Positions 1-52,666 of a stretch of 64,000 nt of DNA are shown here, piece by piece; the first letter of the stretch is position 1; each line of letters begins with the position of its first letter. Source of the stretch: Turritopsis dohrnii (Eukaryota; Cnidaria; Hydrozoa; Anthoathecata; Oceaniidae); assembly GCA_027922465.2 (NCBI GenBank), contig BQMF02000039.1:372001-436000 (forward strand), in the 5' to 3' direction. The notes beneath the pieces were generated by a model that was given only the letters and a program-made list of their open reading frames with translations, did no database searches and was not told the DNA's origin. The position numbers were made by a program, and so were the translations under genes.

Positions 1-540
1 ACCTTGAATTTGATGAAAGGACTATTGTGTGTTTTAAACAATTTTGAAATTAGTATATTAAGATACTTGAGAGTGTTCACACCTGGCGATTGGCGACTAT
101 GATAATTTCTTTAATCGTCGTAACCGTCAGGTCTGAACCAGGCTTAAAGTGAAAGCGATAAAAAATTGTTATATAACTGTTTTTGTTTTCAGAAATTGAT
201 CTTAATTGATCGTTGAAAATTTAATGATTTTTCTAAACTTGTTTTTTCAATTTTCTCTTCTTCTACTTTTCCATTTCCTACATGAAATACATCATGAGAA
301 AGACAAAAAGATTCCATCGATATAAAATGGATATTTTCTCCAAAAACTGCAATGATATTTTTTAAATCCAATTTTTTGAAACACACTGTATCGTTCAGAC
401 CTGACGATTACGACGATTGAAAAAATATCAATCGTCGTAATCGTCAATCGCCATGTCTGAACACTTTTGAAGTATCTCAAAATACTAACTTCAAGATTGC
501 TTCAAACCACACACAATACTTCTTTCCCTTGGTAAGTTTT
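1..540. mobile_element. TIR element running off the left edge
   Basis: Bases 1-135 are an imperfect inverted copy of about 400-535. The inner part of the arm carries GTTCA..CTGGCGATT..GACGATTACGACGATT and the outer part matches down to the first base, so the left end lies outside the window. The centre (about 140-400) shows no recognisable coding sequence. Long arms and a short core fit a non-autonomous DNA transposon (MITE or foldback). The superfamily cannot be assigned because no target duplication is visible. Confidence 0.7.
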
Positions 541-599
541 GAAGCACGTGCCCACACCAACTTAACAATAGAATTGACGTAAAATTCAATGGATTTTCA

Positions 600-776
600 C
601 ATACAATAGAGCGACTACGACGATAAAATATCAAAATGTTTAGATAATTTGTCATCGTAAACGCTAGGCGTTTATGACGATTACGAGGATTACAAAAGTG
701 TTCACATTAGACGATTATGGCGATTACGACGATTACACTAAGTTTTAATCGTCGTAATCGTCAGGTCTGAACCAAC
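600..776. repeat. Fragment related to the left-edge TIR element
   Basis: Repeats the ACGATTACGACGATTA and AATCGTCGTAATCGTCAG motifs of the left-edge element arms in both orientations, ending in the same GTCTGAACCA as seen near 131-140. It is probably a rearranged copy or a second family member. Confidence 0.55.
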
Positions 777-1420
777 CTTTAATAGTGAGCATGCCTTTTG
801 CAATGATTTTTTTGTTTTCTTCTGTAAAGCCATTAACTATAACCTTTTGGTTTTTGAGCATACTGTTTGCGCTGACTTTAAGGCCTATGGACTTCTAGTC
901 CTTAAGCAGATTTACAGACATCAACTTCTATTTAAGTGGGGTAAGTGGGGTGAGTATAACTTTTAGATTTGCATTTATGAAAGACCAGGAAAAACTTTGC
1001 ACAAACTACTTTTCAAAAAAAAAAGCAAAAGTGCGATTGACACGGAATCTTTGTTACTTCCGCTTCGGTTAATCAAGGTACGTCGTGTCTCGTTACAAAA
1101 CAGAAAATAACTAAGATTTTCAGTTCAAATGTTTTATGCTCGAATAACTTGCTAGCTTTACACAATTTTTCTTAATTCCAAAAATGATAATGCATAGAAA
1201 ATTATTTACCTAAGATTTTGTTTCAATAAAATATAAACCTTTTGCAAAAATAATACCAAACAAACAAGATTATGTAATTAGCTTATTAAAATATTTATCA
1301 ATTATATCGATATTAAAACATTTCTCGATTGGTCACTAAGTTGGGGTAAATCTCGGTTTCGTTATCAAGTACATAATTTGTGAGCTATCCCTGGCGAAGT
1401 TTAAGAAAATGTAAAAACTA
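777..1420. other. No recognisable feature
   Basis: AT-rich sequence downstream of the minus-strand ligand gene. I see no coding exon, repeat array or element end. Confidence 0.5.
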
Positions 1421-1423
1421 ACT

Positions 1424-1429
1424 TTTATT
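1424..1429 (-). promoter_or_regulatory. Possible polyadenylation signal
   Basis: AATAAA on the minus strand, about 270 bases past the stop codon of the ligand gene. It is the first canonical hexamer I found, but chance occurrence is common in such AT-rich DNA. Confidence 0.35.
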
Positions 1430-1695
1430 ATTTCCACAACATTTCTTTCTCTAGACCAAAATGTTGCATTTCAGTATGTCTCACTGATGAATAAGCTGAA
1501 ATCAAAATCTTCGATGATTGGTTAAGAAACTTTCAAACTTTCAGGCACAGATAAACCAGGCATTTGTCAGAATAGGATAAAAATGGGTGCGAATATTCAA
1601 TAAGAAAACTTGTTGAACAAACCCTAAACTTTACCAGTTAATTCCCAATGTTTATCAGAAAAGTGCTTTTACTTATAAACTGTAATGGTTAAATA

Positions 1696-3402
1696 TTACG
1701 TATTTGAATTTCCGACGAAATAATCATCGATCAGTGATCCAGATAAACACTCGCATTCACAGGATGTATTCAGGTACTGTTGATAAGGTGTCCACAGTTC
1801 CTTTCCAGCATCATCGGTTCCAGTTAACGCTTGAAAGGTATAATATATAATCTTCTGTGTACATGTACCATCTCCATTCAAGCAGTTAGGCGCCGAATCG
1901 TCACATTCAATACTATTTGCAAATTGCGGTGTACTGAAAAAGAAGTCATAAAAAAAATTATGAAAATCTCTATAGCAACAGGCAAGAATATAAAAGAACC
2001 GTGAAAGTTGTATGATTCGCTTGGAAAGACAACAGGATTAGACTTACAACAGAAAGACAGTGCATGAAATACGTTGCAGGCTATCCCAATCAACGTTACT
2101 TTAACTGTATCAGTATGGGAAATCAATTTTGCAATATCATAGTTGTACATTTTAAGCATTCTTGAATCATTTCCGAAAAATATAACGAAAATGAAAAATT
2201 TACATTGTGTCCTATGGTGCAATTACACGTTTTTTAAATGAGAAATAGTACAAATCCTTTGTGATGATTTTGCAGCCTCAAATGATGCTCAGTTAATGCT
2301 TCTGGAAACTGATGACTGACGGTTAAGATGACAGATGAGAACACAATGCCACTAAGAAATTGTTGAAACTTTCGAAATAAGCATTTTTTTAATCTTTGCG
2401 ATGCAACCTGAGCCTCGATTTGATACTTAAAAATATGCATAAATATAAATATGCATTATCAATTCTGAACCTAGCCATGACGATAGCTATGAATCAAGGC
2501 AAAGGATTAAGGCATCGAACTTACACATAATCACCAAAATCAATTTCTTTGGTACACGTTGCACACAATCTGATAGTGCTGGAAGTTGTGCCTTCATCGC
2601 CTTCTCCGTAGCAGCTAGACACTCCGGTGTAGGTGAATGCAGCACCATCGTTTTTCATCGCTTCAGGATCATAATCCATTTCCACACCAGAAACAGCGTA
2701 TGGATAGTTATCATTTCTGTCAGAGTTATCTTCCTCACTCAAATGCGCATGATAATTTCTGTTGGTTTCTTTGTAATCCTGTACATTATCTCTGATGTCG
2801 TCGTCGTTGTCGTCGTTGTCGTCTTCATTAAGTTCTGTTATGACATCAGAAAACAAATGATTGAAGTAGCGTTCCGCAGCACTGTCCAGATTCCGTTTTT
2901 CCCGACGATTTACTAGATATCGCCTATTTACACGATATCTTCGTAAGTAAGTACGTACATTCCTTTGTTCAAATCTCCTTTTGGCCCATCCTTTGATCTT
3001 TTCCAATTTCAATGAAGAATCAGGCTCACCTGACATCGCTATCTTAACAAAATATGATGCCAATTTTAACTGCTCAACGTATCTGTCCCTATTAAGTTCG
3101 TTCAAAGCTCTTCCGTATATTCTTTCAGAATCAGTTCGATTTTTGGGTTTTGGGTTCTTTTTTCTTCGTTTTTCCGTTCGATTAAATGGTTTACCTTTTA
3201 CTTTGGTGTAATTGAGCAGATCATTTTTACTGTAAAATATGAAGTCAGGTAGTGGACCATCATTGCCGTAGAGTTCTTTCAATTTGAGTTCCAACTCATC
3301 TTTGCTCGATACGGTTATGGTACTGTTCACTTCTTGAAAATTTCGTATGATTACCAACACGAACACAACAAGAATTGCATATATTTGTAAAGAATGTTCC
3401 AT
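1696..3402 (-). CDS. Secreted cystine-knot-like precursor (Spätzle/neurotrophin-like)
   Basis: Two coding exons, 3402-2525 and 1933-1696 (371 residues). Exon 1 ends at a perfect GTAAGT donor in phase 2, and a TTTTTCAG acceptor at 1934-1936 restores the frame. The start is the ATG directly after a possible acceptor (TTTTTAG), so a 5' UTR intron is likely. Residues 1-27 look like a signal peptide. A basic prodomain follows, with a furin-type site REKR at 167-170, then an acidic stretch (192-204). Cysteines cluster at the C-terminus: 264, 280, 283, 303, 310, 317, 351, 353, 355. The spacing EC..C..C.QK.IYY..QAL, then W..Y.....SCECEC, resembles the ends of Spätzle-type Toll ligands, which share the neurotrophin cystine-knot fold and are made as cleaved proproteins. 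That assignment is by motif only. IL-17 or another small cystine-rich ligand is the alternative. Secreted precursor: confident. Family: tentative. Confidence 0.7.
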
Positions 3403-4245
3403 CTAAAAATCAAAACAAACATACATTTTAAATATTTTCACTAACAGTCTGATATTTTAACCAAGATTTGAGAATATTTTCAATAACTTCGATCTAAAAG
3501 TGTTACAAATGTCTGCTTCGAATGAAGTGAGTTACCTCAAAATGTGTGGCTGGATAAAAACATTCCTCAGTGACTGATGATAACCAATTGGTCACAGTTT
3601 GTTTAGAAAAGACTTATACAAAATATATTCCTTATGCTTTGTTTTTGTTTTTGATTTATTTTCGATTTTTGGATGACGTGTTTATTAAGACAGCGAAGAA
3701 TGGTAGTTGACGTGTTTATTAAGAGCAGCGAATAATGGCAGAAGATGGTAGTTCTGCGCAAGTTCCTGTCCAGAATATTCTATTATTTTCATTTTCCTTT
3801 AAGTTAGAATGACCTTTAACGTACCTTCATTATTAATGTAACGTATTGTTTCCTGACTTCCCAAGCTTGTTTTCTGAGTTGTTCACAAAAATTGTTTAGG
3901 ATTTTTATAGGGTTATTTATAATAGTAAAAAAAATATTTTTACAGATGGCAAAATTGGTATGGCTGTAAACAGAAAATTGTCAAAATTTGACCTTGAATG
4001 AATCCGGCCTTAATAAATTGTTTAGAAAATATGAAATGTAAATATTTTAACATCGAAATATCAATAAGATCAGTAAACACATTACATATAAGGGCGTTGG
4101 TTGGCGCCATACTTGAAACAACGTGTACTTGTGATTAAGCGTAATGAATTGGTATCCATGTTTGATGCGAATGCTATCATTCAGATTAGGTTGACAATAA
4201 AAGAATATGAAAACCCTGGGTATCACAAATTTCCAGAATGTGAAA
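3403..4245. other. Upstream region of ligand gene, nothing else recognised
   Basis: Contains the likely 5' UTR intron and promoter of the minus-strand ligand gene, but I cannot place the first exon or a TATA element with confidence. A short direct repeat (GACGTGTTTATTAAGA) occurs at about 3675 and 3710. Confidence 0.4.
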
Positions 4246-4393
4246 ACATATTCTGCCTTGTCACCAGTGAAACATAGCAAAAACATATTCTGCCTTGTCA
4301 CTAGTGAAACATAGCAAAAACATATTCTGCCTTGTCACCAGTGAAACATAGCAAAAACACATTCTGTCTTGTCACCAGTGAAACATAGCAAAA
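4246..4393. repeat. 37-bp tandem repeat, four copies
   Basis: Unit begins ACATATTCTGCCTTGTCACC; copies start at 4246, 4283, 4320 and 4357. They differ by single substitutions (for example CACCAGTG versus CACTAGTG). The apparent minus-strand reading frame across it is an artefact of the array. Confidence 0.9.
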
Positions 4394-5582
4394 GTTATGA
4401 TATATACTAAAAAGTCATTCTGTGAATAAACTTCTAATCTCAATAGTTAATGGGATAGTGGGAATCCTAAAAATAAATATCCCTTCAAACGAAAAAATCG
4501 GTTCAAGTGACTTGGTAAGTTATAAATGATACTCGAAGAAACTAGTTTACTTACTTCGCGTCGATTCTGTCATACGATAAGATTCATGGTTCGTTGTGTC
4601 TCTTCTTAACAGAGGAACAATTTTTTAAACCTCCGCTTCTTTAATATATTAAATGATTTCAATAATTTCTTTGTCGAAATTTGTGTATTATCTTTCGTAA
4701 GATCTTAAGAATCTTTTATTTTTAATCCTTCGAGAAGTTTTTTGTTGAATCAATAGAAAATGCATAACAAGTTTTTAATGAACTAAAATAAAAAGGCTAT
4801 CAAAAAAAGCGCTTTATAAAAACCCTTGGGAAAATAAGAAACAAAAAGTGCCGCAGATGCAATAACTCGGAAGTGTGAAATGTCAGAGAAGAAAAGTAGG
4901 CGAAAAGCGGCTTTCAGATCATCTAAACCTCCGGTGGAATCCTTGTAAAATTTGTTTGGAGAAGTGAACATTTGGTAACATTATGCGTTGTTCTTTCAAA
5001 ATCTGTTGTAACAGTATTCATCGAAGAGCTAGATGGTTTGAAATTGTTAGATCAACATACGTATGATCCTTCTTAATTAATTACGTCACAGCAATCATAG
5101 CCTCGTTCTCAATCTGAATATTAATGACGTTTGTTTGGTTTATAGAAATTCATTCGTTACTGTTGCTTACGAACTTAAAAACGAAGCGGAGAATGTAATG
5201 ACGTAATCAATGAAAAGGCGTATTGTAATTTTCGTAGAATCACCACAATTAGAGATATATTTATAAATAATTTTACTTGAGATTCATACATCAAAATAAG
5301 AAAAAAGAATGCATTATTAATGCCTCTGCAAAGGAGTCGGAGTTTATGCGTAGTGTTAATCCGGATTTCCACTGGAACATCTATTGAGCAACTTCGGTAT
5401 CAGTGCATGCGCAAACTCAATAACTAAAATCAATTAAAATTATCAGCACATTAAAACATGGGAACCATGCCGACGAAAAAACATTTATTCTGTGTTAATA
5501 TACGTCACGGATTATTGCCCCCACAGCAAGCAAGGAAGCATTGTAGTTTCATAAGATAGGCAAAAGTCAGTTTTCGATTTTG
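4394..5582. other. No recognisable feature
   Basis: Only short reading frames without recognisable domains or convincing splice pairs. Confidence 0.45.
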
Positions 5583-5610
5583 TTCATCATCATCATCATC
5601 ATCATCATCG
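5583..5610. repeat. (CAT)n microsatellite
   Basis: About nine CAT units. Confidence 0.9.
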
Positions 5611-6184
5611 TTCAAATTTTCGTGTTGCTGTTACACGGTAGTATTCTACTTAATCGCTTTACGATTTTTCGGACGTGAGAGAAAAAATACGAAGTTCATG
5701 AGCATGGTATTCTTTTTAACTCACTTCAGAAATGAATCGTGATTCAATCTTCAAACCCGTAGCTTCAGTCAAAAATAGCTATATGGATGCTTTGCTTTTT
5801 TAGATAATTTAAAGAAGCTTTTGACTGGCTGGCTGACTGAAATAGATATCGGCAGAGGGATACATTCTCGAACATGTTTTTACTGACTTATTTTACATTT
5901 TTGTTACCGGCCTCCTAAGTATAATTGTGAAAGTATTTTTACCACAGCGTGGCTTCCTTCCATCTTCTTTCAATGTTGATGCCGTTATTATGTCCTTACA
6001 AATATTTCAAATTCTCATGCTAGCTGTTCAGTACTCACTTTTCTAATGCACAGCAGTATTTACCTCTAGCAGCGTCTACTTCGCAGTAGTCATCCCACTC
6101 TTCTTCATAATAGACAAGCTTTATATTCATATTTGTGTCAAGGGATTCATGCAGAAATACACTGTGAGATGGTGGGGAATTTTG

Positions 6185-6356
6185 ATAAATTTATCGATCG
6201 GTTTCGTGTTTTCTTCCTTCAATTACTCTTTATCCTTTCCATTTCATGAAGGAAAAATACGGCGTTGTAAAGATTTTGCAAGAGCTTTCTCCTCATTAAA
6301 AAATTTATACTGCCACAAAGTTGGATATCTTCTATGGTTCCAATTATTTTGAGACC
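6185..6356. mobile_element. One end of a Tc1-like TIR element
   Basis: Closely similar (reverse complement) to the first 185 bases of the element at 19215-20424. It includes the terminal GGTTCCAAT.ATTTTGAGAC, ending in CCTGTGTA where the better copy has the CACTG end. Only one end is present, so it is a truncated copy. Confidence 0.7.
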
Positions 6357-7259
6357 CTGTGTAAATATATAGAAATGAGGCCTCATTTGACAACTAGGCA
6401 TTGATACTGTGTTTGGACAGAATTCGGAAAAGTCTATTTCTTAACCAAGCCCCTAGGTGCTTATCGCGAACTTACAGACGTTTTGGGGATTGCACGTTAA
6501 GGGAGGGGCGCTTTTTCATGCATCGTCTTCAGTGACGTTACTGGATTTTCTGCTGTTAGTACACAATTTGGCAACATACGGCGAGAAATTACAATCCAGT
6601 GGCGGATCTAGAGGTATGTCGAAATTTGTGCGGGGGCATTTTTAGCTAAAGCTACATGCTAGTAACTAGCATACCTTTCAAAAAGTGTAAATGAGGCTTA
6701 ACAAGTATTATCAGTAAGTATTTGCGACAAACAAAAGAAATGTGTGAACTGAAACATGGATATGTATTTTATAATCAAAGTAAGATTTGTTAAAGGAGAA
6801 TTAACGTCAGTTAAGTTTCTCTTCTTATAAAAAAATGTACTGATTTTCTTTTTCACAACATGTGCGCCTGAATTTTTGATTTAATGTTTTTGTTTTTCAA
6901 TGAACATTATAACTTCTATACGTATGTATGCAAGGCGTGGTTTCTACTAGATAGATGAAATCGCAATTCCAATAATGCCGATAATGCTTTTAGAAATCTT
7001 CAAAATAAAAGAAACCAGGTCAGATAGGAGGAAAAATCTCAAGGAACATTTGTTAAGAATGCGCAAGTCTCTGAACACATTACCGTGTCTTTTTTTTTAT
7101 TAGTTTTTAAAAGATTCTTTATGAAAATTGGAAAATACTGGAGTAAACCATGCCTTGTGTTAAAAAAATTCACAAACAGAGCATTTACAGAAATTGAATT
7201 TTAAAAACACTTTACTTTTCTTAATCACTTTGTTGGACCTCTTGAAAGAGCTAGGTTTT

Positions 7260-12491: not shown

Positions 12492-15460
12492 AATATAGTA
12501 ACAAACATATAGGACAAAAGGCTTGAACACCTCCGAAGCATCCGAAGGTGAGATCGCCAGGTATTCAGTCTAAGAAGTAACACAGAGTAAATGACATATA
12601 AAAGCATGGAGTTCGATCTCTAAAAAACAGTATCACTGAAAAGTGATTGACTGTAACGCTCAGTCCCCTTGATATATTTAACTGTCAAACTAAGAATCTG
12701 TCGGTTAGTCATCTCATCAAACATTGGGTTTCCATATAAAGGAATTCTGACTATAGCGTTTCCACAAAAAGGCAAGATAGGAATGTTCGCGCTTTGCAGG
12801 TCTTTGAATAAAATACTCCTTAAATTTGAAAAGTTCAAGCAGTGAAGAAGGTAGTGCTTCGTTGTTTCCTCTGCATTAGTCCGACATGAGCATATCGGAT
12901 CAAGTGAATCTTGGAAGTTATGCCTAAATTTATGTGTTTTCAGGTGACTAAAGTCTACTCTTAGGAGGGTAATGAGAGTCACACCCGCTATGTCATTCAG
13001 CCTATAAACTGAGTTCTGCAATGGTTTGCGACCTTAAAATTTCTCTTTTGAAGAACAATAGATTTGGATTAGACATCCTTCTACAATACCTTCGATCCGA
13101 CAAAGTTTCAAGTCCAAGTTCAAGATAAAGTTTTACGCGGGAAGTTCCAGAGAAGCATCCAGATATCGCCAAAGCAGCACTGTATTGAATGGATTCCAGA
13201 CGTTGAGTAAAGGAATCAAGGGTTGTCGTACATAATATCCCCATAATCGAGATTAGGCCTTATATAAGATTTATATATTGTCAAAAGTGTATCCCTAGGA
13301 AGAGCACTTCGCAACCTCTTTAACATCCCGATACCGGTATTGACTTTGGAGATCTTCTCATTCAAATGATGACGGAAGTTTAACTTACAGTCTAAATGTA
13401 AGCCAGGATGTAACTAGACATCTTGACGCACAACAGGTATGCCATTGAAATATATGTCATGAGGGTCAGAAATATTCAATCTTCTCGAGAATAACACTTC
13501 AACGGCTTGTTTAGAAATATCCGGATTAAAGGACATTTTCCATTGGCGAGCCCATTTATTCACTTGACTAAGATCATCATTTAACTCACTAGCCGTAAGA
13601 AACGGATTAATTACCAAGGAAAAAAGGGAAGTGTCATCAGCAAAGATATCGACTGTCGATTTCATATTGTCGGGAAGGTCATTTATGTAGACTAAGAAAA
13701 AAAGTGGACCAAGAATTGAACCTTGGGGAACGCCAGCTAAGATTTTTTGCCATTCAGATTCCTTACCATTCAAGACAACCCTTTGAAATCTATCTGATAA
13801 AAAGTCTGTCAATAAATTCAAAAGTTTTCCAGTGATACCGTAAGTTTTGAGTTTAAAGACTAGGCCCTCGTGCCAAACCCTGTCGAAAGCTTTAGATATG
13901 TCTAGGAAAACCCCACGAGTGTCCAACGGTGGATTAGCATTAAAACCTTGGTAAATGTTATGCGTGATGGAAAGTAACTGGGATATACAGGAATCATTCT
14001 TGCGAAAGCCAGATTGATCCCCCTTTTTGTGTCACGGCGTGAGGATTACCTCTTTTCCAATAATCAGGATATATCCCATTATCTTGTGAGGAATTAAATA
14101 TGTCAATTAGTGGCTTCACTATGGAGTTATCACAGATCTTGACCATTCGAACAGATATCTGATCCCAGCCATGGGACTTATTTACGTCAAGTGATCTGAT
14201 AATTTTGAGCACCTTGTCTGGTTCAAAGGATATTTTATCCAAACGATGATCGGTTAAAAAAAGAGGCTCAGGCAAACTACTATCCGTTAGCACTGGAGTG
14301 CACTGATTAGCGTAGAAAGTGTTGAAGATGTTTGCCTTTTCAAGAGGATCGGTTATAACCCTGTTTTGATGGTGAATTGGAGGAATTTGAACTTGTTTAA
14401 GAATCGATGTATTATAGAGCAGTATCTCTTCGGACCAATGTTAGGATCATTGAGGGATTTGCCAAGGTTTGCATAGTAAATATCCTTGACCTGTTTAATT
14501 GCTACTTTACAGCGAGATTTGATTGCACGCAGCTGTTCGAAGTCAGACATCTTGCGTCCATGTTTAACATAACGTCGGTATATCTTAGCTTTCTCAAGAA
14601 TCATCCCCTTAATCTCAGTTGTCATCCAAGGCGCATCCTTATCCCTAATCGTTATGATTTTTTTAGGGACGAAGTTACTGAAAACGTTACGGACACAATC
14701 TGATAGGAATTCGACCCGTTCACTGGCATTGAGATGTAAAAAGGTTCTCTCCCAATTAATGGTATCAAACGCATTCTGAATGGCAGTTTTATTAGCTTTT
14801 TCAAAATCCCAGATACGGTAGGCCGGCGGAAAAGGAATTTTGAAATCAACAGTCGCATAAATCACTTGATGATGACATCTGGGATACAGTGATGGAAAAA
14901 CATTGTGTTGACAAATCCAATTTTATTGTTACAAATTTTCGGTGGCTTCCGCATGATGGAAAAACCCCTGAGTTTACAATATAACTATCGGCTGAAGTAA
15001 AGATGAGGTCAATGCAGGAGCTTGAATTCTGCAGTAAATGCGTAGGCTCATCAATAATTTGAGATAAGCCGTTTTGAGAAGTTAAGTCGGATATTTCAAC
15101 ACCCTGTGGCGTAGTTGTATCACCGTCCCACCAGTCCGCATTTCTGGCATTAAAGTCCCCCAGATAAATAGAACAGTCAGGCGAGTAACTATTGATGTTT
15201 ACAATAGTGTTCTCCAACTTGTCCCTAAAGTTTGAAATTTCCTCTGCGTTTTGGCTCGGGGAACGATAGAGACCAGTAAGGCATAACGTTTTAGAGCCAA
15301 ACTTCAATTCGCACACCACGCATTCGTCTAGGGTTGTAATGTTAGATTTGCGGACTAGCGGTAAGTGTTCCTTAAAATAAATACAAACTCCACCTCGTTT
15401 TGTGTCGAATGGGTGATCGCAACGTAAAATGCTACTGTATCCTGGAAGAACAAGTCGTCG
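12488..15460 (-). pseudogene. Non-LTR retrotransposon ORF2 (Jockey/CR1 type), frame-broken
   Basis: Read from high to low coordinates. An APE-type endonuclease (about 15460-14846) has GLYRSPSQ, the LGDFNARN motif and IDEPTHLL. A linker (14865-14353) has PWMTTEIK. The reverse transcriptase (14293-13414) has FLDISKAFDRVWHEGL, AGVPQGSILGP and FADDTSLF. The thumb and C-terminal part (13244-12620) ends in a CSC-ETTKHYLLHC finger. At least four frame changes or stops separate these pieces, so it is inactive. The region order and the poly(A) tail fit one Jockey/CR1-superfamily insertion. No ORF1 was found upstream. Confidence 0.88.
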
Positions 15461-16125
15461 GAGATTTTACGAAGTATAATTAGACAGTTACGCAAGGCCA
15501 CCATGTAATTGCGTTTTTAAGAATAAATTCGGAGGACGATATAACAATCCCACCTCCCGACCCACATCAACCGCTAAAACATGGATTTTTCTTTCTCTTT
15601 AGGTTTTACGAACTTTCGATGGAGAAGATAAACAGATAAAGAGATTTTCTGCTGAAAAATAATTCATTTAATCTCGTTGTGTTTCTCATTGATCATTACC
15701 TTTGGCAATTGTATGTGAGGATCAAGAGCAATTATTCTTGTGACCTGGCCTGGATAATCAATTTAATAATCAATAATGATCAATCTCTGCTTTATTTTTA
15801 CCCTGATGAAAAGGGGGAAGGGATGCAAAGTGGACGAGAATAGGTGTGAATAAAGGCAGGAATGAGATGATAACAATGATAAATGAGGGCTGGATACTCA
15901 GATTAGAATATTTGAATCTCGCTCTAAATAGATTCATACACGGGGTTTTCCGTTGCATTTAGATTTAGTCTGCCTGGACAAATCGTTAAGCATTGGTTTT
16001 GCCATTGTCATATGAGCGGACAGAGTGTTGCAGTTTTACCAGGCTTTCATCAAAGTAAACGTACACAAAATAAAAAAAACAAAAAACAACAATAACAACA
16101 ATAACAACAAAAAATCGCTTTCTAC
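15461..16125. other. LINE upstream flank, nothing coding recognised
   Basis: Could be LINE 5' UTR or older flanking DNA. An A-rich tract with repeated CAACAATAACAA lies at 16060-16115. Confidence 0.4.
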
Positions 16126-27059: not shown

Positions 27060-29830
27060 CGAATATTTTAACAGGATATGCCAATCTGTCTTATCTGATG
27101 TTATGTGGGTCCTGTGTTAAAAATATATAAGAAAATCTAAAATATAAGAAGGAATCGATAAAATAACTAAAATGCGACATGAAACAAAGTAAGACGATTT
27201 AGTACTGAGAGAAGGTGGGAATGTAAAATGGAACAGCGTTCATTGAGTTCAAATACACAACGTTGTCACCAATCTGTGCTGTATTAGCAGGGATTTTAAA
27301 GAATAGTCGTTATGAAATAACATGGTATCATCTGCAAATAGGTTGACATCCGCATAAAGAATAGCATTGGCGAGGTCATTGACATAAAGTAGAAAGAGCA
27401 GAGGGTCAAGAACAGAGCCCTGTGGGACTCCGTGAAGAATGCGTCTAAGTTTAGATTTAAATCCAGATGCAGAGACAGACTGTGAGCGATCAGAAAGAAA
27501 AGAACGAAACCAATCAAGTGGCAATCCTCGAATACCATAGAACTCAAGCTTTGAAAGAAGAATATCATGCTCAACCGTGTCAAAGGCCTTTTGCAAGTCA
27601 ATGAAGATGGAACAGCCGAACTTGCCATTGTCAACAGCTTTGTACATTTTTTCGATGCAATGAAGGAGAGCAGATTCGGTTGAGTGGTTAGAGCGAAAGC
27701 CAATTTGATTAGGATATAGAATTTTGGAATACTGGAGAAATTTAGACAGACGTTTAGGCATGAGTTTCTGGAAGATCTTGTCAAGATTTGACAAGAGAGA
27801 AATAGGTCTAAAGTTTCCAACTTCAAGAGAAGAGCCTTTGTTCTTAAAGATGGGGATGACACTCGCCTCTTTCAGCTTAGAAGGAAAGACACCACTGGAG
27901 AAAGAAAGATTTATAATGTTGGAAAGAATGTTTGAAAGACTATTTAGAACAGATGAGATCAAAGGATATGGCAGGCTGTGTGGTCCAGAAGCTTTGTGAC
28001 CGTTCAGAGATAGCAAAAGTTCAGAAACTTCCTGTGGAGAAGTAGGGGAAGTAAAGAAAGAATTAGGGTTCCTGTTTTTGAGCCATTGAGAAAAATGATG
28101 TCGAGTAGGAGGAATTTTAGAGCGAATTTTGTCAGCAACAGAAGAATAGAAGTCATTGAAAGCCTCAGAGACAAGTGAAGGTTCAGAAGTGATTGAGTTA
28201 CCCAATTTCAAGGAAATGACAGAGGAGGAATTTGAAGATTTTAAGGAAATTATTTCCCTGACACCCATCCAAACTTTGCGCAAATTATGAGAGTTTGATT
28301 GAAAATATCGAGAATAATGAAGTTTTTTACTCAGACGAAGTAGAAAGACAATCCGATTGCGATAAAATTTGCATCTTGATTGAAGAAAAGATTTTATGTC
28401 AGGAGAAGTAGCAGAAAGAAAGTCACGAAAAAGATTATCTCTAACTTTCATAGAAGAAAGAAGACCCTTGGTAATCCATGGTTTATCAAAAAGTTTAGAT
28501 TTACGCCGAGTGATTTTTACCAAGGGAACGTGTTAGTGGAAACCAAAAAAGAATCGAAAGTAGAATTCACGTCACCATCCTCCATCCATTTTTAAAATTT
28601 CATCCCAATTCAGAAGTTCAAATTCAGTTTTAAATTTTTCTTGATCGAACTTTGACCAGTCACGACGGAATCCCAAAGTAGGTTTTTTGTTCTGCCGGGG
28701 TTTGGAGTCCAAAAAAAGGAATTGAGGAAGGTGATCTGATATAGCAACAGTGAGGTTACCGGATAAAATTTCAGAATCAGAAGTAGTAATGAAGATGTTA
28801 TCGATAAGCGAGCTAGAAGCTGAAGTGAACCGAGTTGGAAGAGAGATTGAAGGTAACATCTGATAAGCACCAAGAAGATCAAGAAAATTAGCATGAGATG
28901 TTTCAGATTCACATGTCAAAAGATCAATATTGAAGTCTCCCAGCAAAGTTAGAGATTTGCCTTCTTTATCGACTGATTTCAAGAGAGGAGAAAGGTGAAG
29001 ATTACTAAAAAGATCGGCATCCATACTCGTAGATACAGCCAACAATGACGTTCTTCCGGTTTTTAAAAGTGATTTCAGCAAAAACAGATTCAAGGTACCC
29101 ATCATTAGAACACACGAGTTTCGACAGATCTTTACGAGGCTCAGAGGAGAAAGATTTAGAAATGTAAAGTGCAGCACCACCAACAGAAGAAACGGCAGGA
29201 GTATGAAGAAATTTATAACCTTCGAGAGAAATTTTGGAAGAAGGAGAAGATAGAATTCTGGTTTCACTGATACCAATGACATCGAAATTATGATTAAGTC
29301 TTGAAAAAAGAGATGTCATTTCACCAAAATGTAATTCGAGAGAAGCAATGTTGAGATGAAAAAAAGATAAAAATTTGGATTTAGCAGGAATAGAAACAAA
29401 GTCTTCAGGAGAATAATATTTACAGTTGATTTTTGAAATATTATCATCATAATCTTGGTGTTCGTCAGTCTCGGCTTCAAAATTAGAAACAAATGTGTCA
29501 GATATTGAATTTAAATATGTGAAATAGGATTTCAAGTAACTCAAATTCTTACCAATAGGTTTTTCATCTAAAGGTTCACCAAACGGCAAAATTTCGTTTC
29601 TGCAGAATTTACAGAGCCAATGCGATGCGAATTTATTAACCATATCATTACACTTGGCATGTGATCGTCTCTTACAGACCGAGCAGTAATGTGATTTGTT
29701 AATCTTAATTTTTTTGTCGCACACAAAACAAAATTCGCTTTCTGTATTCATTCGCTTTATTACGCTAAGCCTATAACGCAATATTAGAATAGGAAACAAT
29801 GAAGTGCTAAAAAGAACAAGATGCCCTACC
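27060..29830 (-). pseudogene. CR1/L2-like LINE ORF2, frame-broken and 3' deleted
   Basis: From high to low coordinates: a PHD-like zinc finger starting MNTESEFCFVCDKK with seven further Cys/His positions (about 29755-29600); an APE endonuclease with FFHLNIASL, DVIGISET, LLGDFNIDLL and SDHLPQF; then a reverse transcriptase (28523-27249) with IFIDLQKAFDTVEHDILL, HGVPQGSVLDP and FADDTMLF. The usual GPL after GVPQGSVL is DPL here. A frameshift near 29050 and another near 28550 split the frame. The RT is cut shortly after the FADD box, followed at once by 3' UTR, so the thumb is deleted. Inactive. Confidence 0.88.
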
Positions 29831-31025
29831 GGGCAGAAGGATTTCTGCACGCTTTGCTGCTGAAAATGCCACACTAGCACACTAGTCCTGCAAAACTAAG
29901 ACAGTCACATCATTCAGCTCGAGAAGCATCAACATTAAATAAACAAAAATATTAATGCGACTGACAATGTTCGTCAAGAAAGTCAGCCTACCATAACATA
30001 AAAAAGGGGCTTTTCTTTATGCTATCGCGGAGATCATTTATGAAGATCTGTTTTTTTGTACGAATAAGCTGAATGATTGTTACTGGATATTTGCCACCCA
30101 CGTACTCCAAAAAAGTGCATCCACACAATACGAAACTTTAATTTAACCACATTAAATATAACGAGTCCGATAAAAAGATTGTGTATACTGGCGGTAACCA
30201 ACATATCCTTTGGGCAGCACAAACTAATATATAAAGTTTCTATATTGATCTCCTCAGTATGAAAAATATAAATATCACAATAATAATTACTTAGAAATTA
30301 AAGCTCATATCTAATCTAAAAGTTAAAAAAAATACAACATACGTAAGGAGAAAAGAGATAAGCTGATATAGCCAGAATACATCCAAAAATTGCTACTAAA
30401 TATAGTATAAATAGCTGTATAAAGTGCATATATGTTGGTGATGTTGGGGAGGAGCTGAAAGGAAGCTAAGCTGAGCTTTAAAAATCCAAAAGCTTCTAAA
30501 AATCGACTTCAAACATGCATACACATACAAAATACACGAAGGTCTTTCATATCTAAAAAGGCTTGGAGCAAAAAATAAAACAAGAAATACCTTTTCTTCC
30601 ACACACCATGTATTGGCACTGTTTTCATATTTTAAACTTCGAGAAAACTTCTTTCAAAAAACAGAATAACCACACTGTAATTTAATTTTGTGAACATGAT
30701 AAGTTCCCAACAGTAATGCAATTCTTTATATAAAATTATAAGCTGTATTAACTTCTTTTAAAGCCATATTTCCATCAAAGAAACTTTTAGCAAACTAGTC
30801 ACACGTTCTTTCGCTGCCATTTTTAAAACGTTTTGTGGACGATCACATGGCATGGCGAAAATCAGCCAATAAACTATCGCTATTTAAGTGGAGGTGGCTA
30901 AATTAGCACCCTTTCGTAGAAATCGGGCATTATGCACCAATCACGATTGAGACGGCTTTTTTATGAACCAATGAAATTTAAGAAACAAAAATGCGTAGGT
31001 TTGGACAGTAAGATGAAAAAAAAAA
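29816..31025 (-). repeat. 1.2-kb tandem repeat, unit 1 (next to LINE 5' side)
   Basis: Begins ACAAGATGCCCTACCGGGCA and ends GTAAGATGAAAA. It is about 97% identical to the next unit by eye. It overlaps the upstream end of the LINE frame, which reads through into it. Short frames in the unit (30034-30222, 30396-30602, minus) are preserved in both units but have no recognisable domain. Confidence 0.85.
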
Positions 31026-33641: not shown

Positions 33642-36037
33642 CTACTCGACGCACAAAACGCGAATGTCATTCCCAGTAGCGTGGCGATTAAAGATGATGC
33701 GATATGCTCTTTTTTCGAAGTTTGAGACTTTTTCTTCGTATGTTTTGTTATAGGTGGTCAGAATCGAGCAGTATGTAAATATTGATAAAACCATCGACTG
33801 GTAGAGTTGAAGTGCTCCCTTTATTGTTAGTTGTGGTCGGACTCTTTTCAACAGGTAAAGGCGTCCAGTAGCTTTTTTGTAAGATGACTCCATGTAGTCA
33901 CGCAATGATAATGTTTGATCTAGTTTCACAACAAGATACTTATAAGCCACTGTAGGTGACAGTATGTTATGTCGATGCACGATAGTTAAAGAGCAATCCT
34001 TTACTTTTTGTGAAGTTCCGAAGAGCATGGCTTCGGTTTTACCTTTTTTCATATTGCACACCAAGTCCCTCGACTCAAGCCAAGTAGCAATTGCCTGAAA
34101 ATCTTCAGTCAAACACGTTTCAATATCCTTGAGTGATTTTCCTGGAACGTAAATGACAGTGTCGTCTGCATAGGTGATGATTTTTGACTTAGAAAGGACT
34201 GAGTCGATATTATTAAAGGTTAGCAAAAAGAGCAATGGTCCAAGGATGGATCCTTGTGGGACACGACATGTAACATAACTAGGTTTTGACATGACTGATC
34301 CATAACGCACGGCTTGCTTTCGATTGAAGAGATAATTCGTGAAGAGTTTCTTCTCTATTCCATGAATACCATAATTCGGAAGATTTTCTATGATTTGGGC
34401 GTGGCTAAGAGTATCAAATGCTTCACTCAAATCTATAAATATTGCTCCTGTCATTTTACCTGCGTCCATGTTGAAACGAATTTCATCGAGGAACAGCGTC
34501 CCTGCCATTTCTGTATTTCGTTTTTTTCGAAAACCAAACTGGGCTTGAGATAATATATCTTTTTCTTCAAGAAAGCGTGAAATTTGAGAATGAAGACATT
34601 TCTCATATTTTCGAGCATGTCGGCCCAGCAGGCACCAAACGTTATACTAACGTTAATGTTACGTTATTTTTTACGTTGTGGTAACGTTAGTGGTTGGTTA
34701 GAATGGAAGTCTTTTTTTAATTAGTATAACGTTAAAAACTTACGTTAGTATAACGTTAAATACTTACGTTAGCATAACGTTAGAAAGTTGTCCTGATGTA
34801 ACTTTCTAACGTTATACTAACGTAAGTAGTTAACGTTGGAATAACGTTGATTTTACGTTGGTAACGTTTAACCTAGAATCAACGTTAGACTAACGTTAAA
34901 TAAACGTTGGGTGCCTGCTGGGGGTAGTACTGTCACAGGGCGATAGTTGTCCAAATCGGATTTCGAACCAGATTTGAAAATAGGCGAGATAACGCCAAAT
35001 TTGAAGTTATCAGGGACGATTGCAGATTTAAGTGACATATTTATTACGTGTGCGAGAGGTGCAGCAATGTATCGAGCAGAATCTTTTAACATTCCTGGGG
35101 GCAGATCATCGTGACCAGTTGCCTTATTTCTCGAAAGTTTCTTAAGGTGTTTAAAAACGTCAGCAGCAAGAACTTCTTTAAAATGGAACGTAGAATAAGT
35201 TCTAGGATGTTGAACAATAGGTCTGGACCAAACAAAATTTTTCAACAGTATGGATTTCTCTTTAACACGTCTGGCCATGTTTGTAAAGAATTCACAAAAG
35301 TTTGAGGCTATTGTTTTAGGGCACGATGTTAATGATCCATCAATCAAGAAAGATTTTGCAGTGGATAGAACATTTTTCATTGGAAAAATTCTTTTCAATG
35401 TCTTCCAAAACTTTTTCGGGTCATTCGAACTTTCTGTCAATAGATTTCTAAACTGATTTCCTTTAGCTTTTCTTACTAGCACATTAACTTTATTCTTTTG
35501 TTTTCTATAGTTATCATAGTCCACTTCCGATCTCGAATTACGAAATTTTCGGTAAAAGCTATCCCGATTGTTCATTTCTGCTTTTATATCACGATTAAGC
35601 CAAGGTGAATTTTTGCCCTTCACGCGTTTGGAAATTATAGGGGCATGGGTATTGAAAACATTGATAAGAATCAATTTTAGAGCTTTCCAGGCTTTGTTTG
35701 GATTTTTCCTTGTATAAACAGATGAGAAGGCCTTGTTACGTAGGTCGTTTTGCATTGCTTCAGGAAGATGATTTGAGTAATCACGACATCGTATGGTTTG
35801 AGGACGTTCTTTTGTTTTTTTTCATTTTTCTAACACAACATATTGCATCATGATCACTTAATGCACACGGGATTACTTCATTATTTGACAAAAACTCGGG
35901 TTTGTTTGATAATATGACATCAATCAAGGAATGACTCGTAATTCGTGTTGGGCTTTGGATCTTTTGAATAAAACCATTCAACGATGACAAATCTTTAAAC
36001 GGTTTTTCGTGGTTAATGTCTAAATAATTACAGTTGA
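33642..36037 (-). pseudogene. Second CR1/L2-like LINE ORF2, split by a MITE
   Basis: From high to low: an endonuclease tail (DVILSNKPEFLSNNEVIP, ALSDHDAI) is truncated at 36037, where a Tc1-like end starts. A linker (35755-34923) has NSPWLNRDIKAEM, LSRNKATGHDDLPPGMLK and GSKSDLDNYRPVTVLP. After a 299-bp MITE come the remaining RT motifs (34608-33642): SQAQFGFRKKRNTEMAG, IFIDLSEAFDTLSHAQI, VPQGSILGPLLFLL and YADDTVIYV. The C-terminus ends about 100 bases upstream of the ORF1 start of a different LINE. Removing the MITE rejoins the reading at PVTVLP. A frame change near 35770 separates the endonuclease part. Confidence 0.88.
34624..34922. mobile_element. MITE of CCCAGCAGGCACC ends and AACGTTA repeats
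   Basis: Perfect 13-bp TIRs CCCAGCAGGCACC. The interior consists almost wholly of iterated AACGTTA/TAACGTT words, so the whole element can fold on itself. It interrupts a LINE reverse transcriptase, with at most GG duplicated at the target. Confidence 0.9.
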
Positions 36038-36617: not shown

Positions 36618-36799
36618 AACTTTTTTGTCAAGCATAGTTGATTTTTTTTTTATATTTCTTTTTTCTACTCACAACTCATCAAAAGATCTCCAAAGGCAAT
36701 GACATTAGCACTCCCATCCTTTCGTAATAACAAGTATGTGATAAAACAAAGAAACCATTGGATATTGCGCATGAATAAAAAAAGACAGGAGTAGCAACT

Positions 36800-38424
36800 C
36801 GTTTTAAAAGCACAAATGAAAAAGCTCTATTTACCCACTGCTATGGCCATGCTCTGAATTTGGCAGTAAAAGATGCTTGCAGCCAAGTTTCTTGCTTAAA
36901 GAACGCTTTTTCTTGTGCGTTTGAGATCGTCAAACTTGTAAAAAACTCTCCACAACGTGAAACTATGCTGAAGCAGTTACGTGCAGACTCAAAGAATGAG
37001 GATAGGAGTGTCCACGCTTTCTGTGTTACTCGATGGACGGTGAGAGGTGAAATCTTGGAGTCACTTATAAATAACCACGAGGAATTGATGAGACTGTGGT
37101 CTGATGCTTCTGAAATCACAAAAGACCCAGACATGAAAGCCCGTATCATTGAATTCCCGTTTTTATTTGGTCGTTATCTCGGGGCAAAGATACTTAAACA
37201 AACTGATAACCTTAGTTCAACTTTGCAAACCAGTGAAATGTCAGCTGTGGAAGCTCAAGAACTCGCAAAGCTCGTTTTGGAAGTCCTTAGGAAAGATCGC
37301 TCAAATGATAAGTTCGACTTGTTTTGGGAATTGACCAAACAGAAGATGGAAAAGTTAGGTATTGATGAGCCAGTTCTCCCAAGAAAAAGAAGAATGCCTC
37401 AACGTTATGATGAAAATAGAACCGACTTTCATCATGGCTCTGTTAAAGAAATGTACCAGCAAATGTATTTAGAAAGATTTTGTCATTAATGCCATAACTG
37501 AACGGTTCGATCAACCTGATTAGAGTGCTTTAGCAACTGCAACGGCAACGTTGAGGACGACGTGAGCAAAACGAACAAAATAAATAATTACTACCAAATA
37601 AAAGTATGAATAACTTATTTTTGTTAGAGAAACAATTCAATTTATAAACTTATATCGATTGGAAAGTTATCAAGTTACTATAAAATCTTCATAAGAGAAA
37701 AAAATTTATCTCTGTAATCGCGTCTCCGTTGTCAACACGACTTCGAAGCATGATTTTTCACGTTGAGCATAGAACGTGCAAACATGTTAATGATGTAATT
37801 ATCTTCCCAATGGTGTCATAAGCGGTAGACTCTCTTTCTAAACAAATTCCACATAGAAAACAAAGCTTTTGTTTTAAACACGTCGCTGTCTTCGTTGCCG
37901 TTGCGATTGCTAAATCTCCCTATTATCAAATGTACGCGGCCATGCAAAACATCATTTTGTATGCAATTAAAGGAGATGGCTTCAAAAGCGAGATGACGAG
38001 ACCAGTTTTGAAGAATGGTCAGGTGTTATTTGCTGATCTGTACCATGATGACATCGATATGGTATCTTTAACAACCCAGCTGGAGCTACTGCCATCAGTT
38101 TTTAAAGAACCTTTAACAATACATAGTGTGTTTAAACAAGCAAGGGAAATGAGCTCAAGTAAGAGGAACCTTATCAGTCAGGTGGTTATCTTCATGAAAC
38201 TTATCATGGTAGCACCAGCAACAAATGCCGAGAGCGAAAGAATCTTTTCTGCAAAAGATCACAAAGATCGACTAAATGATCTGGATTTTGTTGAAATCGG
38301 CAACAACTTTGTGAGTGCCAATCAAAGGAGGAGAAACAAATTCGGTATTTTTAACAATTTAGATTACGGTAAAGTCCCTGAAATTACATCTACAAGAGAA
38401 TGTGCAGCGCAAACCGATGTTTGA
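36800..38424 (+). pseudogene. hAT transposase (ZMYM-type), N-terminally deleted and interrupted
   Basis: The frame reads FTHCYGHALNLAVKDACSQ, then CVTRWTVRGEILESL, then KRRMPQRYDE to 37489. This matches the central RNase H-like part of hAT transposases of the ZMYM1-like (DUF4371) group. The N-terminal zinc finger and first catalytic region are missing. A stop and frame change occur near 37485, and a 400-bp MITE separates ERFDQPD from YQMYAAMQ. The C-terminal part (37930-38424) has VAPATNAESERIFSA, the hAT dimerisation (hATC) motif, but the residues that usually follow are shortened. Not functional. Confidence 0.82.
37522..37921. mobile_element. MITE inserted in the hAT transposase
   Basis: TIRs AGAGTGCTTTAGCAAC.GCAA and complement (AGGGAGATTTAGCAA when inverted), sharing CAACGGCAACG. 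ATT (or ATTA) is duplicated on both sides. The host frame reads through cleanly if it is removed. Confidence 0.85.
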
Positions 38425-50367: not shown

Positions 50368-50449
50368 GAAACATTACATGGGAGCCTTTAAGAGGATTAT
50401 ATTAATCTTGATAGATCTGTTTGTGTAACAGTGATTTTGGTTGAACCTT

Positions 50450-52554
50450 CAGGGCCGTCGACACCAGTGGGCCAGGGGGGCATGCCATGCATATCATTGC
50501 TTTCTGTAAAATTTCCCATATAGTCCAGGGAAAGTGTGCAAAAATAGTGTTCAATTGTGCGTTTTTGAGTAGAAAGCATGAAATTTGATACAGTGGTTCT
50601 TTGGGTGGAAAGAAACATTTTAAGACTCAGACCCATTCCCAGAACACCTGTCCGTGTATTTTGCAGACCACAATGGCTGACTAATAAAAAAAGAAATTTT
50701 TTCTCCAGTATGACATGTTATATATCATTGGCAAGGCTTTTTAATACTGATTCCAAAAAACATTACAACCCATATCTGAAAATGGACTGGTGACGAGTTG
50801 AAAACAATCTCGGATTTTGAGCCAATCAAGAATTTTCTCTCAAATCGCGGGCACACTTTTCAGGCTTTCATCTACTGCTGTGCAAAGTTTTAAAGGAAAT
50901 GAGCCACTTGCTGGTAGGTGGAGCTCATAGAAGGTAGAACACTAATAATTTTTCATCACATAAACGACGATATGACAGCCTTTAATAAATTCACAAAGTG
51001 AGCTGCTAATTTAATTAATCGCCTTTTGATCATATAACAGATTGTATTAAAGGTTGTTAGAAATGTTGAATATCAAAAAATGCCCACAACTTTCACAAAA
51101 AGCATTATTTTTCGCTATAACTTTAAATGTAGTGTAGTAATAACCTAATGATTGCATCTGTCAAAAAAAATTTGAAAAATGAAACTTTTGAAACATACGC
51201 TGAGCCCTTAACTGGTTGTTTACGCGAACTTGTCACAGAAGCAGATGGAAGAAAAGTAGAGGAAGAATGTATCATTTTAGATGGAGCAGCAGTCGTGAAT
51301 ATGCTGAAACGCAGAAAAGTGCTGGAGGATGCAAGGGTTCCAGGAAATTGACAATCGTTCTTGCGAGTTGATGAAAACAAGGAAGAACTTTTTAGCTTTT
51401 TGGCAACCGAATCTATCAAAATCGTTACTCAGAAGAACATTATTAGCACCAAAAACAATTCTGTGATTTCCAACAATCACGACTGTTTGTCCCCGTCTCT
51501 ATGTAACCACGAAGAGGCAGATACGAGAATGTTTCTGCATGCAAAGGATGCGAGCAACTGTGAAGCAAAGAAGATTTGCATTAGGACCGTTGATACTGAT
51601 GTTGTTGCGATTGCAGTCGGGGTGTTTGCTCAACTTTGTGTCAATGAGTTGTGGCTATCATTTGGTGTTGGAAAAACCATCATCAATCGACCTGCAGAAG
51701 TCTTGGTGATGTCAAGAGTAGGTGTCGTCCAGCTTTCCATGCCCTAACTGGTTGGGGTCAGGTCTCGTTTTTTAATGGCAGGGAAAAGAAGAATGCACCT
51801 GGGGAAAATTCAACGATCTGACTGCTTGCCTGGATTTGATCAGTTACAATCATTCATCCATAATTCATGATGTAGAGTCATTTTTCTCCACCATCGAAAG
51901 ATTTGTAGTGTTATTCTACGATCGAACAAGTACAGATACGGAAGTAAATGTTTTGAGAAAACACCTCTTTGCAAACAAAGGAAGATCATTAGAAGGTATC
52001 CCTCCCACAAAAGATGCATTATTTCAGCATTTTAAGCGGGCTGGAAATTGAGCGACCAAGAGAAGTATGAGATCGCTTGGACAACCTTACCTGAGGCTTC
52101 AAAAATGTCAGGAACTTATCAAATGTGGCTGTAAAAAGAGAAAGGGTGCGAAAGTCGATGCAAATGCAAAAAAGCCTCTTTGGAATGCAAGGAACTTTGC
52201 AAATGTGGTGGAGACTGTGTCGACCCATGATTTTTTTAGACATCAGTAAATTACATCCGTGACGTATAGCGCGCTTTCTGTGACGTAAAACTGGTCCCCA
52301 GTCCATTTTCAGATATGGATTGTAATGACGGGTGTTCTGGGAGTAGGTCTGAGTCTTAAAATGTTTCTGTCCACCCAAAGTACCTCTGTACCAAATTTCA
52401 TGCTTTCTACTCAAAATCGCACAGTCGGTGCACACTTTCCCTGGACTAATACTCAATGTACACACATGGGATTTAAAACATTATCATGGTGTGTCCTCCT
52501 ACGTCACTGATTATGTGTGGCCCCTCCAACTTTGACATCGTGTCGACGGCCCTG
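50450..52554 (+). mobile_element. DNA transposon, 15-bp TIRs, 5-bp target duplication, uncertain superfamily
   Basis: Ends CAGGGCCGTCGACAC and its exact complement, flanked on both sides by ACCTT. Subterminal inverted similarity continues for about 350 bases (GAGTCTTAAAATGTTTCT, TTTCATGCTTTCTACTCAAA). The 2.1-kb element carries one plus-strand coding remnant. A CAGGG end recalls hAT elements, but those duplicate 8 bp. The 5-bp duplication and this protein do not fit a superfamily I can name with confidence. Confidence 0.8.
51148..52245 (+). pseudogene. Transposon-encoded protein with PIN/FEN-like motif and Cys-rich tail
   Basis: A broken plus-strand frame. Key pieces: EECIILDGAAVVNML; after an in-frame stop at 51349, CNHEEADTRMFLHAKDAS and ICIRTVDTDVVAIAVGVFAQ then NELWLSFGVGK; after a frame change, ERFVVLFYDRTSTDTEVN, LEGIPPTKDALFQHFKRAG; finally a Cys-rich end (CQELIKCGCKK and further CxC pairs). 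HEEADTRM and RTVDTDVV place paired acidic residues on predicted strand ends, as in PIN/FEN-type nucleases (inference). I recall similar proteins from repeat-derived gene models in many animals, without a settled name. At least two disruptions, so inactive here. Confidence 0.6.
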
Positions 52555-52666
52555 ACCTTACTATCTCCATCAAACTTAATTCAAACATATAGACAAGATG
52601 ATTACTGATTTACTTAAAGAAACGTTTTCTTTCATTCCTTTATAAATCAATGTGAAAATTTTCTAA

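Follow-up and report, generated by a model that had tools for sequence, protein, structure and literature searches.

Does the 2,105-bp interval at positions 50450-52554 of a 64,000-nucleotide stretch of the Turritopsis dohrnii genome (contig BQMF02000039.1, C39:372001-436000, hereafter the window) represent a single mobile element? A prediction made from the sequence alone, hereafter the original prediction, had described it as one complete-ended DNA transposon carrying a PIN-like, Cys-tailed protein and as a candidate for an under-described mobile system. Searching the window and the 436-Mb genome (891 contigs), we found that the observation is real but composite, being made of two ordinary elements, one nested in the other. 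We consider it very likely that the 2.1-kb unit comprises a non-coding outer element that was later split by an internally deleted Academ-like copy, probably of the AcademX type, so that one apparent candidate for a new superfamily can be struck off. The case illustrates how nesting can surround a protein with flawless ends and a flawless duplication that are not its own.

The outer ends belong to a short non-coding element

The 15-bp terminal inverted repeats (TIRs) of the original prediction were confirmed, with CAGGGCCGTCGACAC at 50450-50464 on the plus strand and at 52540-52554 on the minus strand (0 mismatches), and the ACCTT copies on both sides are a real duplication, that of a 174-bp non-coding element (50450-50520 plus 52452-52554). 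These ends are more than a chance pattern, because the window held three matches to the 15-mer with at most three mismatches versus 0.16 expected from shuffles, and the genome held 32 exact copies (14 forward, 18 reverse) versus 0 of the reversed control. Among the 19 of these 32 exact ends that were read, exact 5-bp duplications accompanied the outer element at L005/L010 (TAATT) and at L004 (TATTC), the second end of which differs from the 15-mer at six positions, and the duplication at L044 agreed at four of five positions. L005 and L010 have common flanks and were therefore counted as one insertion site. At none of the other copies read did these ends and a 5-bp duplication enclose the coding region.

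From a looser scan, the end pairs at L043 and L049 (1.9-2.0 kb apart) and a second partner for L004 (597 bp) were taken as chance, each having one mismatch in the five duplicated positions and five to six mismatches in the TIR. Separately, the 15-mer or a one-mismatch form of it occurred in tandem with a 30-bp period at L007:1455-1515 (three times) and L046:159-249 (four times), possibly a satellite that arose from the outer element's end.

A second pair of ends reveals the nesting

Inside the outer ends lies a second pair, TAGTCCAGGGAAAGTGTGCA, a perfect 20-bp repeat at 50521 and 52448 with ATA on each side. The alignment of the window coding element with its relative at locus L051 ended at these two positions, not at 50450 and 52554. 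With the insert and one ATA removed, the joined flanks aligned through the junction with related outer copies at L004, L005, L010, L042 and L047, five uninterrupted loci in the same genome that represent four insertion sites, and a single ATA was read at the junction in all of these except L042. Because these related copies cross the junction without the insert, the outer element is the older of the two, and the inner one interrupted it. The best explanation is that the small non-coding element bearing CAGGGCCGTCGACAC ends inserted first, duplicating ACCTT, and that a deleted Academ-like copy, which has long inverted repeats of its own and duplicated 3 bp, later inserted at ATA within it.

The inner element is a deletion derivative of a longer transposon

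The protein family encoded by the inner element had at least 111 matches in the genome. At L051 (C420:72001-81500), the element spans 626-7088, a length of 6,463 bp, with 408-bp inverted repeats that are 94% identical, ends reading TAGTCCAGGG and flanks that repeat TGG; the ends of the inner family are also given as TAGTCCAGGGAAAGTGTG. Protein similarity lies in five blocks between 1554 and 6622, with open stretches of 516, 139, 205, 294 and 352 codons in the matching frame, so that the full-length element does code, for a protein of ~1,400 residues with N-terminal cysteines, a DDE-like domain, a nuclease of the EXO1/FEN1/XPG fold and a Cys tail. One spliced protein per full-length member is the best explanation for this arrangement.

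The window copy matched the L051 element in blocks of 91.8, 93.4, 90.9, 93.5, 96.5 and 91.8% identity and lacked its region 281-4605, which holds the N-terminal part, the DDE-like part and most of the linking part. It had been called not a DDE layout because this deletion removed the DDE-like part; in the full-length relatives, D, D and E are conserved within an N-terminal domain. The motifs HEEADTRM, RTVDTDVV and ERFVVLFYDRTS and the Cys-rich end are present as predicted, in plus-strand frames that are interrupted by frame changes and stops. Reading the copy by eye against its best relative, P0121 of Clytia hemisphaerica, we found the WDxY segment missing and TGCD not intact; judged from these losses, the window copy should therefore encode no working nuclease. 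Elsewhere in the window, the element matched nothing beyond short stretches, and these weakly (best E 0.11).

The duplications were 3 bp in all five inner-family elements with both ends read (ATA in the window, TGG in C420, TTA in C460, CAA in C780 and TTA in L002). A different duplication length in other copies, one of the results named beforehand as counting against the original prediction, was thus found for the coding element, to which 5 bp had been assigned; nor are the 15-bp ends its own. A 2,142-bp derivative with an open 360-residue nuclease frame (L011 in C460, element 1035-3176) matched L051 in two blocks, one of 1,602 bp at 99.8% identity and one of 548 bp at 100%. Because these near-identical copies lie at different sites with different duplications, the sequences point to recent movement of the inner family, including its deleted copies, and the role of the nuclease is therefore open to testing.

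Two loci of the family were found in prokaryote genome contigs, L001 in a Planctomycetota metagenome-assembled genome and L002 in a Bathymodiolus mussel gill symbiont contig, and presumably represent animal transposon sequence that contaminates these contigs. L002 is a distant relative of the inner family, and L001 starts within coding sequence and thus offers no left end to read. The viral contigs searched yielded no relative.

A common animal protein family with a predicted nuclease fold

The frame around HEEADTRM retrieved 143 relatives at E≤1, and a read-through of the remnant retrieved 780 at E≤1e-5, the best being P0121 (53% identical over 94% of the query), whose best identity in the genome is 80%. 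With a longer query, relatives of full length (1,340-1,430 residues) were recovered, among them P0324 from Capitella teleta, P0266 and P0328. With named sources that include hagfish, lobster, crab, coral, sponge, mussel and pearl oyster, the nuclease family is widespread in animals and poorly named, in agreement with the earlier impression that the protein is frequent among animal gene models. This very common unnamed family, marked by HEEADTR, TVDTDVV and a Cys tail, can now be tied to an Academ-like transposon whose nuclease has the EXO1/FEN1/XPG fold, a link of use in annotation.

The full-length relatives share a motif order of N-terminal cysteines, then VDNIDH, DQPLY, GGLHIE, YARW and HEQNN, then LDGAA, WDxY, HEEADTR, TVDTDVV, TGCD and GKGKK, and lastly the Cys tail. 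In an alignment of 78 sequences (A1), counting at each position only the rows with a letter there, the candidate D, D and E were conserved in 11/11, 53/54 and 63/63 rows, and the nuclease acids in 70/71, 72/73, 78/78 (four positions) and 77/78. In P0294, the conserved D53, D227 and E449 lie in an N-terminal domain whose strand and helix order is RNase H-like. From its sequence, we regard this domain of the full-length relatives as DDE-like, with DDE chemistry as its putative activity.

Structure prediction gave the nuclease part an EXO1/FEN1/XPG fold, which bears out the PIN-like, Cys-tailed description. D86, D181 and D233 are named in the titles of matched PDB entries, and the seven catalytic acids are numbered as in FEN1.

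A probable transposition mechanism

In the mechanism that we consider likely, the DDE-like domain would bind and cut the TAGTCCAGGG ends, which it would then join to the target at positions staggered by 3 bp. The structure-specific nuclease fused to it would act in excision or gap repair by trimming flaps or branched ends. The window copy, having lost its DDE part, would have been moved in trans by a full-length copy.

Alternative explanations

Exact 15-bp ends and an exact 5-bp duplication do enclose a coding remnant, as they would in a single 2,105-bp transposon with CAGGGCCGTCGACAC ends that carries the PIN-like protein. Such a transposon is refuted by the related outer copies without an insert; moreover, other loci have the inner ends and 3-bp duplications without the outer ends, and the 6,463-bp relative at L051 has no outer TIR beside its ends when scanned at up to three mismatches, leaving this explanation with very little probability. 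Even less credible is a reparse that the window alone would allow, in which the outer duplication is 3 bp (CCT), the TIR is 16 bp and starts with T, and the whole 2.1-kb unit is an AcademX element. We rejected this candidate once other copies were read, since the base preceding CAGGG varies among them, the 5-bp parse fits L005/L010 and L004, and the coding element has its own ends.

It is unlikely, though a more serious prospect than either of these, that the inner family lies outside Academ, as a separate undescribed superfamily that combines a DDE-like domain and an EXO1-fold nuclease with 3-bp duplications. Such a standing would accord with DUF6589 being the sole Pfam model that recognises the family, with the literature searched giving no transposon name for it, and with a comparison that included no reference Academ sequence. 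It has to contend with the Academ elements in Repbase, whose proteins combine an XPG-like nuclease with a Cys8 finger. A nuclease together with duplications of 3-4 bp is, moreover, the combination that a passage of PMC10045372 states for AcademX. We give still less credence to the stronger proposal of a superfamily of its own in which a DUF6589-related, DDE-like domain is fused to an EXO1-fold nuclease acting directly in 3-bp-stagger transposition; if it were true, the nuclease-only derivatives (the window copy, L011, and L002 in mussel) would keep the nuclease because it is active in trans.

Several results weigh against the nested, Academ-like interpretation that we prefer. L042 has a 2-bp gap at the junction; in C242, C3, C294, C43, C222 and C314, only one end was located, its partner not being found in the piece at the predicted place, which leaves the duplications unread; and ~390 bp of the inner element (50800-51189) had no counterpart in L051 or L011. 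Neither XPG/FEN1 nor any transposase was tied to the protein by a sequence profile, a sequence search of the PDB gave either nothing or two weak unrelated entries, and the Pfam matches collected for sets of 57 and 40 relatives included no XPG family. When the whole model was used, Foldseek matched the nuclease part only, the DDE-like part not having been folded alone; the VIA-align and Foldseek lists likewise contained nuclease only, with no solved transposase matched to the DDE-like part, for which they were barely a test.

Other features of the window

The features of the nested pair are listed in Table 1. Elsewhere in the window, two plus-strand open frames at 36779-37489 and 37822-38424 resemble parts of a hAT transposase and carry the motif ATNAESERIFS, a signature of that family. 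Minus-strand open frames with reverse-transcriptase-like motifs (FADDT, YADDT) at 13414-15466, 27249-29895 and 33642-35821 are probably remnants of retrotransposons without long terminal repeats (non-LTR).

Table 1 Coordinates of the two nested elements in the window (MITE, miniature inverted-repeat transposable element).
Feature	Position	Strand	Details
Outer element, left target duplication ACCTT	50445-50449		5 bp, exact
Outer non-coding element (MITE-like), left part	50450-50520	+	15-bp TIR at 50450-50464; its positions 38-71 97% identical to L005/L010
Inner element, left target duplication ATA (original triplet of the outer element)	50518-50520		Single ATA in L004, L005, L010, L047
Inner Academ-like element, derived by internal deletion from the L051 6,463-bp element	50521-52448	+	
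Inner left TIR, first 20 bp perfect	50521-50799	+	92% to L051 element 1-281; self inverted repeats
Inner stretch unmatched to L051 or L011	50800-51189		Unmatched by BLAST at E≤1e-5
Remnant of fourth coding block (ILDGAAVVNML region)	51190-51310	+	93% to L051 element 4605-4721
Remnant of fifth coding block, EXO1/FEN1/XPG-like nuclease (HEEADTRM, RTVDTDVV, ERFVVLFYDRTS), frameshifted	51306-52043	+	90.9% to L051 element 4980-5737
Remnant of Cys-rich tail	52038-52234	+	93.5% to L051 element 5808-6007
Inner right TIR, shortened	52243-52448	+	96% and 92% to L051 element 6147-6231 and 6342-6463
Inner element, right target duplication ATA	52449-52451		3 bp
Outer element, right part	52452-52554	+	15-bp TIR at 52540-52554; 88-94% to L042, L004, L050, L005, L047 (100-109 aligned positions)
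Outer element, right target duplication ACCTT	52555-52559		5 bp, exact

Comparison with known systems

AcademX is a lineage of the Academ superfamily, attributed to Kojima (2020) and described in PMC10045372. The inner family resembles it in encoding a nuclease, which in AcademX is XPG-like, in its 3-bp duplications and perhaps in the DDE-like domain of its full-length relatives, and differs in that the window copy keeps only the nuclease and Cys tail. As the likeness is one of description, with no reference Academ transposase for comparison, we regard AcademX as the likely name of the inner family, and a match to a known superfamily is to that extent probable; the literature searched gave no account of AcademX at the level of sequence. 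A passage of PMC10045372 assigns AcademX and AcademH to the same superfamily, Academ, and links duplications of 3 or 4 bp in AcademX and of 9 or 10 bp in AcademH to the encoded nuclease and helicase, respectively. The inner family differs from AcademH in duplication length, and no helicase family appeared among the Pfam matches of 40 of its relatives (E≤0.1). It is also a long element, its 6,463 bp comparing with the mean of 5,565 bp given in a passage of PMC10294476 for 100 curated bivalve Academ elements.

The protein resembles the EXO1/FEN1/XPG nucleases in fold and in having counterparts, by motif, of their seven catalytic acids; by contrast, it shows no detectable sequence-profile similarity to them, and its nuclease belongs to a transposon protein that has a Cys tail.

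Ends of the CAGGG type are a hAT signature. The outer element, which has no transposase, resembles non-autonomous elements of the hAT5 type, defined by 5-bp duplications in the title of a cited reference, both in its ends starting with CAGGG and in the length of its duplication, exact in the window, L005/L010 and L004 and with one mismatch in L044.
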